DNA of 64,000 bases, from positions 25,512 through 89,511 of the forward strand of contig JARLJH010000006.1 of the NCBI GenBank assembly GCA_031291305.1, in the 5' to 3' direction. This DNA is from Rhodoferax sp. (lineage in GTDB: Bacteria > Pseudomonadota > Gammaproteobacteria > Burkholderiales > Burkholderiaceae_C). The position numbers were made by a program, and so were the translations under genes. Under the pieces are notes generated by a model that saw only the letters and a program-made list of their open reading frames with translations, had not been told where the DNA came from and ran no database searches. This document shows, piece by piece, positions 32,977 to 49,172 of the stretch. Position 1 is the stretch's first letter. Every line of letters starts with the position of its first letter.

Positions 32977-33144
32977 CAGTTTTCCTAGACCAGAGTGATA
33001 TCCGTCAAAGCCGGGCTTTCCAGTCGGGTGCGGCGCGTTGCACAACCGTTCAGGCAACACTTCTTCAGTATCGTGCCAGTGCCAGCTTAGACGTGACTTA
33101 AAGAACCGCAGGATAAACGCATGGCTGTCAAAAACACACTATCG

Positions 33145-33713
33145 GGTGCGATTTAAAGTGATGTGTGCCGATAGAAAACCTCCTCTCTGCACGCCAGGGC
33201 GACCGGGCCAGGCGCATGCGGTTTTGGAGCCAAATCACGCGCGGGGCAGTACCATCAGTTCGCCAAATCCTGAGTCGCGCGCCTTTGGCCCCAAAGCCCG
33301 GTCGCCTGACCCAGCCACCCTGTCTCAACCGTGTAGGTCTTGACGAATTTTGTAGAGAAACAGCCTCAAGCCCTTATTGGACAATCGCTAGAAGCTATCA
33401 AAACTGGTGCACATTTTTCCCATATTTCCCTTGTTCCCTAGGTTGTCCGGGTTTCTTCTGACCCCGCGCGGCTTCAAAAGCCCATAAGGCGTGGTGGCTG
33501 GGTCAGGTGACCGGGCTTTGGGGTGAAATGCGCGCGTCTCAGGGATTGGCGCACTAGTCAACACCGCCCGCGCGTGCTTTCACCCCAAAACCGCATGCAC
33601 CTGACCCAGTCGCCACGCCGTACGTCGATGCTGCGGGTTTAACGCCCGGGACTCATCCCCATGAGCAACCCAAGAGACAGCGTTGGCGGCCTGACGGTCT
33701 GCGCCAACACACC
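33145..33713. repeat. Large composite palindromic repeat, copy A
   Basis: A 569-bp non-coding element repeated at 48562-49147. It has a conserved entry (GATAGAAAACC at 33170), a left unit (33198-33319), a 173-bp centre holding a short dispersed repeat, and a right unit (33493-33614) that is the inverted copy of the left unit. Each unit is itself an imperfect palindrome (GGTTTTGG...CGCGCG / CGCGCG...CCAAAGCC). The inner edges of the two units, 33291-33319 and 33493-33521, are complementary over 28 of 29 positions. It occupies the space between qseB-like and radA. No protein is convincingly encoded. Confidence 0.85.
33361..33405 (-). repeat. Short AT-rich dispersed repeat, copy 8
   Basis: On the minus strand: TTTTGATAGCTTCTAGCGAT then CCAATAAGGGCTTGAGGCT. 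It sits in the centre of large repeat copy A. Confidence 0.8.
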
Positions 33714-33783
33714 ACATCATTTGAATCGCACCGCACACCAGCCACGCCGCCACATCTGATGTTTTATACAGTAATATTCATCC

Positions 33784-35196
33784 ATGGCTAAAGAAAAAAC
33801 AGTTTACGTTTGCTCCGAATGTGGCGGCGTCAGCCCCAAATGGCAGGGCAAGTGCCCGAGTTGCAACGCCTGGAACACGCTGATCGAATCGGCACCCGAG
33901 AGCACCGCACCCACCAAAAACCGCTTTGCCTCGCTGGCTAAAACTGCCGAAGTCGCCATTCTGGGTGACATTGACGCGGTGGACATGGCACGCACCCCCA
34001 CCGGCCACGACGAGCTGGATCGCGTACTGGGTGGCGGCATGGTTGAAGGCGGGGTGGTGCTGATCGGCGGCGACCCCGGCATTGGCAAATCCACCTTGCT
34101 GTTGCAGGCCCTGGACTCGCTGCAGCGCAGTGGTCAAAGCACCTTGTATGTCACCGGCGAAGAAAGCGGTGCTCAAGTGGCGTTGCGCGCTCGACGCCTG
34201 GGGCTGGACGGCTCACAAGTACGGGTACTGGCCGAGATCGGGCTGGAAAAAATACTGGCCACGCTGGAGGCCACACGGCCGGATGTGGCGGTCATCGACT
34301 CGATTCAAACCGTGTATTCCGACCAGTTGACCTCGGCGCCCGGATCGGTGGCACAGGTGCGGGAATGCGCCGCGCACCTGACACGCTATGCCAAAGCCAG
34401 CGGCCAGATGGATGGCGTGACGCGCGGACGCGCCACCAGCATCGTGCTGGTCGGCCATGTCACCAAAGAGGGCGCGCTGGCCGGGCCGCGCGTGCTGGAG
34501 CACATGGTGGATACCGTGCTGTATTTTGAAGGCGACACGCACAGCAGCTTTCGGCTGGTGCGCGCCATCAAAAACCGTTTTGGCGCGGTCAACGAGATTG
34601 GCGTATTTGCCATGACGGAAAAGGGGCTCAAGGGCGTCAGCAACCCGAGCGCCATTTTTCTGAGCCAGCACGCCGAGCCAGTGCCCGGCAGTTGCGTCAT
34701 GGTCACGCTCGAAGGCACGCGCCCGATGTTGGTCGAAATTCAGGCGCTGGTGGACAGCGGAGGCCCCAGCCCACGGCGTTTGAGCGTCGGTCTGGATAAG
34801 GATCGCTTGGCGATGCTGCTGGCGGTGCTGCACCGTCACGCGGGCGTTGCGTGCATGGATCAGGATGTGTTTGTCAACGCGGTTGGAGGCGTCAGAATAT
34901 CGGAACCCGCAGCAGATCTGGCTGTACTGCTATCAATTACGTCAAGCCTGCGTGGTAAGCCGCTGCCGAAAGGATTTTTTGCGTTTGGCGAAATAGGCTT
35001 GGCTGGTGAGGTGCGCCCGGCACCGCGCGGGCAAGAGCGCCTGAAAGAAGCCGCCAAACTGGGTTTCAGCGTGGCCCTGGTGCCCAAGGCCAACCTGCCC
35101 AAAAACCTCAAGTCCAAGGACTTTGAGGGCCTGACCATCCACGCCGTTGAGCGCGTGGAAGAGGCCATGGCCGTGGTGCGTGACCTGGCTTATTGA
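33784..35196 (+). CDS. radA: DNA repair protein RadA
   Basis: RecA-like branch-migration ATPase acting in recombination. The 470-aa protein has an N-terminal zinc finger (Cys10, 13, 24, 27), Walker A GGDPGIGKST at residues 95-104, the RadA-specific KNRFG motif near residue 259, and a C-terminal Lon-protease-like domain with GEIGLAGEVRP near residue 400. All key elements are intact. Its 3' end overlaps the convergent Skp-like gene by 7 bp. In relatives I recall radA close to alr; here ~8.5 kb separates them. Confidence 0.97.
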   Translation: MAKEKTVYVCSECGGVSPKWQGKCPSCNAWNTLIESAPESTAPTKNRFASLAKTAEVAILGDIDAVDMARTPTGHDELDRVLGGGMVEGGVVLIGGDPGIGKSTLLLQALDSLQRSGQSTLYVTGEESGAQVALRARRLGLDGSQVRVLAEIGLEKILATLEATRPDVAVIDSIQTVYSDQLTSAPGSVAQVRECAAHLTRYAKASGQMDGVTRGRATSIVLVGHVTKEGALAGPRVLEHMVDTVLYFEGDTHSSFRLVRAIKNRFGAVNEIGVFAMTEKGLKGVSNPSAIFLSQHAEPVPGSCVMVTLEGTRPMLVEIQALVDSGGPSPRRLSVGLDKDRLAMLLAVLHRHAGVACMDQDVFVNAVGGVRISEPAADLAVLLSITSSLRGKPLPKGFFAFGEIGLAGEVRPAPRGQERLKEAAKLGFSVALVPKANLPKNLKSKDFEGLTIHAVERVEEAMAVVRDLAY

Positions 35197-48531: not shown

Positions 48532-48561
48532 GCGTTGACGGCAGCTTTGCTGAACTATTGG

Positions 48562-49147
48562 GGGGCGATTCAAACGGATGTGTTCCGATAGAAAACCTTC
48601 TCTCAGCACGCCAGGGCGACCGGGCCAGGCGCATGCGGTTTTGGGACCAAATCACGCGCGGGCGGTGTCGATCAGTACGCCAATCCCGGAGACGCGCGCC
48701 TTTGGCCCCAAAGCCCGGTCGCCTAGCCCAATCACCCTGGCTCAACAGCGCCGGTTTTGACGGATTTTGTAGTGAAAACACCCTCAAGCCCATATAGGAC
48801 AAGCGCTTACAGCTATCAAAACAGAGGCATATTTTCTCGTGTTGCCCGCGTTGCCTGGGTTTCCCGGCTTTCTTCTGATCCTGTGCGGCGTCAAAAACCG
48901 ATAAGGCGTGGTGATTGGGTCAGGTGACCGGGCTTTGGGGTGAAATGCGCGCGTCTTGGGGTTTCGCATACTGTTACGTTGCCCCGCGCGTGCTTTCACC
49001 CCAAAACCGCATGCACCTGACCCAGTCGCCGCGCCGTGCGCCGATACGCTGATACGCCGATACGGACTGCTCAACGCCCAGGACTCACTCCTCATGACAT
49101 CCCATGGCAACACCAGAGAACGCGCTGGCTGCCAGCGCCAACACACA
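48562..49147. repeat. Large composite palindromic repeat, copy B
   Basis: A 586-bp second copy of the element at 33145-33713, same orientation. It has the same parts: GATAGAAAACC entry, left unit ending at 48736, centre with a short dispersed repeat, right unit from 48910, and a tail ending GCGCCAACACAC. Inner edges 48708-48736 and 48910-48938 are complementary. Relative to copy A, two paired positions have changed on both sides (48731-48732 with 48914-48915). It lies between the radical-SAM gene and a convergent thioredoxin gene. Confidence 0.85.
48778..48822 (-). repeat. Short AT-rich dispersed repeat, copy 13
   Basis: On the minus strand: TTTTGATAGCTGTAAGCGCT then CTATATGGGCTTGAGGGTG. It occupies the centre of large repeat copy B, at the equivalent place to copy 8. 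Confidence 0.8.
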
Positions 49148-49172
49148 ACTTCAAGCTGAACCGCCCCCAAAA

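Follow-up and report, generated by a model that had tools for sequence, protein, structure and literature searches.

REP, BIME and REPIN sequences are short hairpin units that stand in inverted pairs in intergenic DNA, occur in many copies, show RAYT association and make no target duplication. MITEs have also been tied to RNA: in the portions of the sources cited here, QMITEs of Coxiella burnetii are reported as a source of small RNA (review PMC10969869; original PMC5896051), and the transcript of the Correia/NEMIS MITE is described as being cut by RNase III at the TIRs (review PMC10969869). Mutator-like IS, including ISKra4, have 18–39-bp IRs, a conserved terminal C and 8–9-bp duplications according to the cited portion of PMC3942029. 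The Betaproteobacterial repeat element (BRE) is, in the cited part of PMC3110155, mostly intergenic in Comamonadaceae including R. ferrireducens T118, 75–91 bp at full length and often tandem, and is found also in Bordetella, Delftia and Acidovorax. The same strain T118 had the most significant spaced motif pairs of the genomes analysed (140) in the section cited of PMC5217627, and these pairs may reflect repeats like the element described below.

The window, the whole 64,000-nt stretch of DNA that was analysed, holds two copies of one element, at 33144–33733 and 48561–49168, and only these two. A sequence-only reading had described a same-order element present twice, with four related units, and both copies and all four unit matches were recovered. 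Its copies were correctly located; the true ends lie at the TIRs, which puts the left end 1 nt and the right end about 20 nt beyond where it had placed them. Read from the left, a TIR is followed by a minus-strand hairpin unit, 163 nt of centre and a plus-strand hairpin unit; then come a short hairpin, read in copy 1, and a second TIR. The four window units score 140–147 bits with the covariance model R1, and all four (through L001 and L003) are among the 51 sequences from which it was built. The features are as follows.

33135..33143, no strand: left 9-bp target duplication of copy 1 (cacactatc), the same as 33734–33742 at 7 of 9 positions
33144..33165, plus strand: left TIR of copy 1, GGGTGCGATTCAAAGTGATGTG with 1 mismatch
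33192..33324, minus strand: left hairpin unit of copy 1, CCAAAGG subtype (5' arm), R1 139.6 bits
33325..33487, no strand: centre between the units of copy 1, 163 nt, mean identity 72% among ten genome copies
33488..33620, plus strand: right hairpin unit of copy 1, TGAAATG subtype (5' arm), R1 146.6 bits, fold −98.8 kcal/mol, z −12.0
33682..33708, plus strand: short hairpin GTTGGCG...CGCCAAC near the right end of copy 1, read from the sequence
33712..33733, minus strand: right TIR of copy 1, a 13-nt inverted repeat with the left end (92%), one base missing and the terminal base changed
33734..33742, no strand: right 9-bp target duplication of copy 1 (cacaccagc), read from the sequence
48561..48582, plus strand: left TIR of copy 2, GGGGGCGATTCAAACGGATGTG
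48609..48741, minus strand: left hairpin unit of copy 2, R1 140.4 bits
48742..48904, no strand: centre of copy 2, 163 nt separating the units
48905..49036, plus strand: right hairpin unit of copy 2, R1 146.8 bits
49147..49168, minus strand: right TIR of copy 2, decayed

The left and right units had been described as mutually inverted and each a hairpin, and measurement in copy 1 agreed: its two units are inverted with respect to each other, with 63-nt arms 87% and 55-nt arms 82% complementary, and its right unit is itself an imperfect hairpin with 52-nt arms (73% ungapped) and 34 nt between them. The predicted fold of copy 1 reached −302.9 kcal/mol (z = −14.5, 100 shuffles). The flanks of copy 2 (gaactattg and aaactatgg) agree at 7 of 9 positions only after a 1-nt shift, and at 4 of 9 unshifted. 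Open reading frames overlap both copies, of 66–101 aa in copy 1 and of up to about 130 aa in copy 2, and read through the hairpins; by eye, none appears gene-like. Copy 1 is flanked by a response regulator gene, whose best NCBIfam match, PmrA, falls below its cut-off, and by radA, both transcribed away from it. Copy 2 stands between two genes that are transcribed towards it, one a radical SAM gene from the AmmeMemoRadiSam system, the other thiol-disulfide oxidoreductase-like (below cut-offs).

Aligned units form a 43-pair hairpin of about 133 nt with a variable loop of about 33 nt and two internal loops around GACCGGGCTTTGG / CCAAAACCGCATGC that are invariant or nearly so. Among the 51 units of R1, 15 of the 43 pairs had changed on both sides (154 such cells), and none of 500 shuffles, which ignore kinship, reached any of five measures of covariation. 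Sliding the structure by 1–3 columns left 29.5–48.1% of cells paired, compared with 97.7% in the true fold. The covariance-model check proposed in the sequence-only reading revealed strong covariation, with the qualification as to kinship just given; of its guess of a large structured RNA, the structured, covarying element stands and the RNA identity is a candidate.

We then compared 154 units scoring at least 100 bits and no longer than 151 nt, omitting L001, L003, L250 and L252 as duplicates; most of the units compared (L060–L170) were supplied by an exact-motif scan whose motif fixes part of one arm, and the within-genome comparison given below is independent of that scan. Their 6,601 pair cells comprised 5,661 Watson–Crick pairs, 772 G.T, 44 A.C and 124 others. 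Three G.U pairs were kept in 126, 143 and 153 of the 154 units, and leaving out these constant pairs gave G.T against A.C as 350 to 44. Because the odd pairs are G.T, not A.C (772 to 44), one strand is the folding strand, and RNA and single-stranded DNA fit this alike. Besides the window, 28 listed loci contained more than one unit: 26 were outward (−,+), L073 was (+,−) and L083 was (−,+,−). In L102, two units lay about 1 kb apart.

Rfam returned no gathering-score match in the window. By E-value, positions 33000–33800 gave five matches to four microRNA models, all far below their gathering scores, and a known RNA family was rejected on these unmet scores. Single-unit elements (L072, L121, L137 and, by eye, the cysD–cysN loci) carry a second conserved hairpin, with the core CTACGTGTCCCCCG...CTCCTCCTT, 5' of the unit. 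Allowing up to 2 mismatches, its 14-base core occurs in 28 of the loci fetched, some of which coincide. The MITEs may be modular carriers of several hairpins.

A 616-base query matched 14 places of the 5.0-Mb genome strongly and 4 more weakly; these grouped into ten paired elements and four with one full unit. The search for copies beyond the first two, also proposed earlier, thus yielded these 14 strong places as well as other genomes with units. Across the ten paired copies, mean pairwise identity was 0.89–0.94 for the arms, 0.63 and 0.75 for the loops, 0.72 for the centre, 0.65–0.68 for the outer parts, 0.55–0.56 for the TIRs and 0.27–0.31 for the flanks. Four of the 20 ends were unrecognisable (left in L006 and L009, right in L007 and L008). 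When only recognisable ends were compared, a rerun that also omits the right end of L006 though a TIR lies there, the TIRs reached 0.71–0.72, like the centre, with the arms still at 0.89–0.94. The rise of the TIRs from 0.55 to 0.71–0.72 makes retention of the hairpin by selection, the explanation that we prefer below, slightly less favoured and an ordinary MITE slightly more so. The two units within one element belonged to different subtypes and were 0.80 identical, whereas units of the same subtype across elements were 0.925 identical. Because units resemble the same subtype elsewhere more than their own partner, the copies are not homogenised; these subtype identities, and the nearest-neighbour pattern at cysD–cysN described below, speak against concerted evolution between copies.

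To place the unit among other bacteria, R1 was run against genome samples of increasing breadth. At E up to 1e-6 it matched 31 of 89 genus genomes and found nothing in the other 58, of which at least one (G021) has weaker matches. It matched 5 of 399 genomes sampled from the family, three of the same genus and two of one other genus, and 1 of 399 sampled from the order, which was the window's own genome. The exact-motif scan of assemblies found at least 111 stretches, with 80 listed loci; the matches listed were labelled Rhodoferax, unclassified Comamonadaceae, Burkholderiales and beta proteobacterium, and two Polaromonas. Within the samples searched, Rhodoferax and a single other genus of the family were the only ones with a unit. 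The units of that other genus (L101, L108, L130, L131, L246, L247 and L255), some of them in records labelled Polaromonas or Burkholderiales, have a longer loop and measure about 160–190 nt overall, and L247 has two units about 920 bp apart. A distant blastn search with the 588-bp copy found no match in plasmid and phage collections, and viral contigs lacked the exact motif; a plasmid or phage origin was rejected on these results.

Members of the family end in a 22-bp TIR, GGGTGCGATTCAAAGTGATGTG, which is present but decayed in the window copies. Allowing up to 5 mismatches, we found 50 TIR matches in 79 listed loci, 49 of them within 900 bp of a unit, and five shuffled TIRs gave 0–2 matches each in the same loci. 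The count covers 79 of the 80 listed loci, L070 being left out as it has the motif and no model match at E up to 0.001. At least one TIR lay near a unit in 35 of the 79; in L075, the TIRs are those of a separate 87-bp MITE. At a tolerance of 2 mismatches, the TIR occurred in 31 of 89 genus genomes, and a control read backwards occurred in 0 of 89.

The first impression by eye, that there were no target duplications, was overturned by the flanks of 38 TIR-bounded elements, with and without units. This set excludes the window copies, and its count of 14 elements with a unit is a lower bound, as loci that were not scanned with the model carry no unit label. Flank identity was 0.673 at k = 9, compared with 0.274 (sd 0.027) for shuffled flanks; among the other lengths from 2 to 13 it was highest at k = 3 (0.333, shuffled 0.252, sd 0.040). 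Fourteen of the 38 elements matched at 8 or 9 of 9 positions (shuffled mean 0.4, maximum 4), and 18 matched at 6 of 9 or fewer. TIR matches were numerous in G105 (304 in a genome of about 2.6 Mb) and G103 (136 in about 2.7 Mb), in neither of which the unit model finds anything; their elements (L200–L229 in G105), where both ends were fetched, are mostly about 180–215 bp long with varied interiors. Two MITEs of 87 bp, barely more than two TIRs, at L180 1436–1522 and L075 4253–4339, have duplications matching at 9/9 and 8/9 and are likely to be recent insertions.

A non-autonomous ISKra4-type element (MITE) is therefore the probable carrier: its ends match those of an ISKra4 IS, and its flanks show agreement over 9 bp. 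The IS in question, L230 from the sister genome G033, is 1,421 bp long, has TIRs with one mismatch each and, by reading, a duplication of 8/9. Its transposase scored 212 bits against the NCBIfam ISKra4 cut-off of 205 and contains one in-frame stop; the longest open piece alone scored 183 bits, below 205, with ISKra4 remaining the best family. In L232 (G069), a TIR adjoins an ISKra4 match below the cut-off. Consistent with this assignment, the published ISKra4-group features, so far as the cited part of PMC3942029 gives them, agree with the element's 22-bp TIRs with terminal G/C and its 9-bp duplications. The earlier guess of a non-autonomous mobile element gained support from the TIRs, the 9-bp target duplications and an ISKra4 IS with matching ends, and we infer past mobilisation by such an IS.

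Other observations count against ISKra4 as the mover. ISKra4 matches occurred in 8 of 89 genus genomes, and the sole one over the cut-off is L230 with its in-frame stop. None was found in the window's genome, an empty search answer that is weak evidence, or in G105, the genome richest in TIRs, and no intact ISKra4 partner with these ends was found among the 89 genus genomes. The ISKra4 matches L231, L233 and L234 have no such TIR nearby; L231 (G103) contains an open 525-aa ISKra4-like transposase frame of 168 bits, below the NCBIfam cut-off. The candidates L183, L184, L186 and L199 were rejected as partner IS, the TIR being surrounded by ordinary genes. By reading, L183 and L186 have merely a transposase-like start beside one TIR, and family searches with the L186 fragment returned nothing significant.

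At least seven loci of the exact-motif scan, four of them belonging to named assemblies, hold a unit between cysD and cysN in a common orientation, antisense to the operon (genes confirmed in one locus, L142). Within 500 bp, none of the seven had a TIR that beat the best of 30 shuffled TIRs. In all seven, the nearest neighbour among the 154 units is another cysD–cysN unit, and three pairs have changed on both sides (1 of 500 shuffles). Across seven pairs compared, stems were 91–97% and loops 52–69% identical. Selection on the fold after immobilisation would predict this pattern. The flanks have decayed unevenly (45–86%), being in part coding and in part the second hairpin-like stretch before the unit, and the contrast between stem and flank is smaller than inside the window's genome. 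The argument from immobile copies was built solely on cysD–cysN; other ortholog pairs (L124/L163 and L014/L126) were set aside, their arrangements being opposite or unequal, and may be independent insertions. L014, from this genome, has one unit and L126, from R. ferrireducens A7, a pair, probably in the same intergenic region, which may reflect gain or loss of a unit within the element or independent insertions.

We found no gene context common to the units. By simple gene calls, all 94 scored elements were intergenic, two of them touching the end of a called gene by 1–3 bases; this scoring left 35 elements at locus edges unscored, dropped repeats of one unit and counted non-edge cysD–cysN orthologs apart. 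Of 36 multi-unit elements, 16 lay between divergent genes, an excess with p = 0.047 relative to intergenic regions of at least 100 bp, 0.15 for at least 200 bp and 0.38 for at least 300 bp. The 3' side of single-unit elements faced a gene start in 34 of 58 (p = 0.24), and a leader regulator with fixed orientation was rejected on this lack of significant bias. Because single units show no significant orientation and the cysD–cysN unit is antisense, a strict leader regulator is unlikely. No promoter-like site was found in 33000–33900. Any function of the unit looks dispensable, because R1 finds nothing in 58 of the 89 genus genomes.

On these results, with somewhat better than even confidence, we favour a structured element, probably RNA, that was spread by a MITE and would have been retained by selection after immobilisation. 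The two window copies would be old, decayed MITEs, most likely of the ISKra4 family, inserted in the past by a transposase acting in trans that made the 9-bp target duplications. Their putative cargo is the 133-nt hairpin unit, often two facing outward, folding as a single strand of defined sense. Its arms remain paired and near-unchanged while the rest of the element decays, and this holds also at cysD–cysN, where no mobile ends are detectable. The simplest reading would be that selection acts on a folded RNA whose transcription starts in the unit or passes through it. Within neighbouring transcripts the hairpin might, for example, bind a protein or serve in processing or stabilisation; alternatively, the unit might be a small RNA. 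Our best guess is one of two: a small RNA, or a hairpin that many transcripts can use. By its geometry, a pair of outward units would place one sense hairpin in a transcript of either direction; that this matters to the cell is a guess. A bolder form of the proposal, in which the unit is a new structured-RNA class carried by ISKra4-type MITEs across Rhodoferax, working at many loci, selected after the death of its carrier and given a sense copy either way by the outward pair, is one that we put forward tentatively.

One alternative is that this is an ordinary MITE whose hairpins are selfish or accidental palindromes, paired via template-switch repair and similar through a recent master. Such an element would be expected to have TIRs, target duplications and an IS sharing its ends, as seen here, and prokaryotic MITE transcripts are generally said, in the cited part of PMC10969869, to form stable stem-loops. 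However, a selfish element needs its TIRs, and in the window's genome these are no better kept than the centre, with the arms at 0.89–0.94. Repair to perfect complementarity would also erase the three G.U pairs, which survive in 126, 143 and 153 of the 154 units. Partner units of an element are not homogenised (0.80 versus 0.925), and the cysD–cysN units persist without detectable TIRs. We therefore regard an ordinary MITE as unlikely, while taking it seriously.

A hairpin that serves as the folded-DNA target of a recombinase or transposase, like REP/REPIN or attC sites, would be consistent with the strand-specific folding, the G.T pairs and the near-invariant internal loops, which fit a hairpin-binding enzyme as well as they fit RNA, and the paired inverted layout recalls REPINs. 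By contrast, insertion between TIRs with 9-bp duplications does not suit such a target, and the two Y1-transposase genes found in the window's genome (by length, IS200-like in L058 and RAYT-like in L059) are flanked on each side by about 1.5 kb free of any unit; this possibility appears distinctly improbable to us. The strand asymmetry that favours folded RNA or single-stranded DNA bears also on a double-stranded site, either for nucleoid or chromosome organisation or as a bidirectional insulator between promoters. The intergenic position of all 94 scored elements, the 16 of 36 multi-unit elements between divergent genes and the lack of significant orientation bias would suit such a site. However, the excess between divergent genes reaches significance only when the background is intergenic regions of 100 bp or more (p = 0.047), and a double-stranded site gives no evident reason for a preference of G.T over A.C of 17 to 1 (8 to 1 without the constant G.U pairs). 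We give a double-stranded site very little credence, and the chromosome-organisation site suggested in the sequence-only reading found no support and is weakened by the same asymmetry.

MITEs are often taken as selfish DNA with incidental folding. Here, what is kept is the cargo hairpin, and the remainder of the element is what decays, both among ten copies in one genome and at an operon common to several species. This makes it directly testable, in environmental bacteria, whether a transposon can distribute ready-made parts, of RNA or folded DNA, across a genome.

Among known systems, REP, BIME and REPIN sequences are alike in their hairpins, inverted pairs, intergenic position and many copies. 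They differ in that the Rhodoferax units are 133 nt long and come with 9-bp duplications, and no unit was found beside Y1-transposase genes; a REP/RAYT origin was not supported, given the unit length, the lack of a unit in L058 or L059 and the duplications. Compared by description, within the cited part of PMC3110155, BRE differs in size and host range, the unit model having matched only two genera in the family and order samples. QMITEs, also compared by description from the cited portions, are alike in that a MITE is a source of structured small RNA, the RNA being a candidate here; the host differs, and covariation and persistence without detectable ends are shown for the Rhodoferax element. 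The Correia/NEMIS transcript, as the cited part of the review describes it, is cut at the TIRs, whereas the main hairpin of the Rhodoferax element is the interior unit. The claim that no named family has this layout did not survive for the carrier, which is itself a known kind, a MITE of an IS family; it holds for the hairpin, which has neither an Rfam gathering match nor a description that we found, and we recognised no published description of the element in the open-licence literature. MITEs of IS families, in particular of the ISKra4 group (p-MULT 4, Mutator superfamily; the cited portion of PMC3942029), share its short length, lack of an evident gene, TIRs, 9-bp duplications and ISKra4 ends. 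By contrast, the interior hairpin here is much better preserved than the TIRs and comes as one or two defined modules. What is new is the combination: a MITE with a cargo hairpin that is preserved far better than its other parts and remains at an operon where no ends are detectable.
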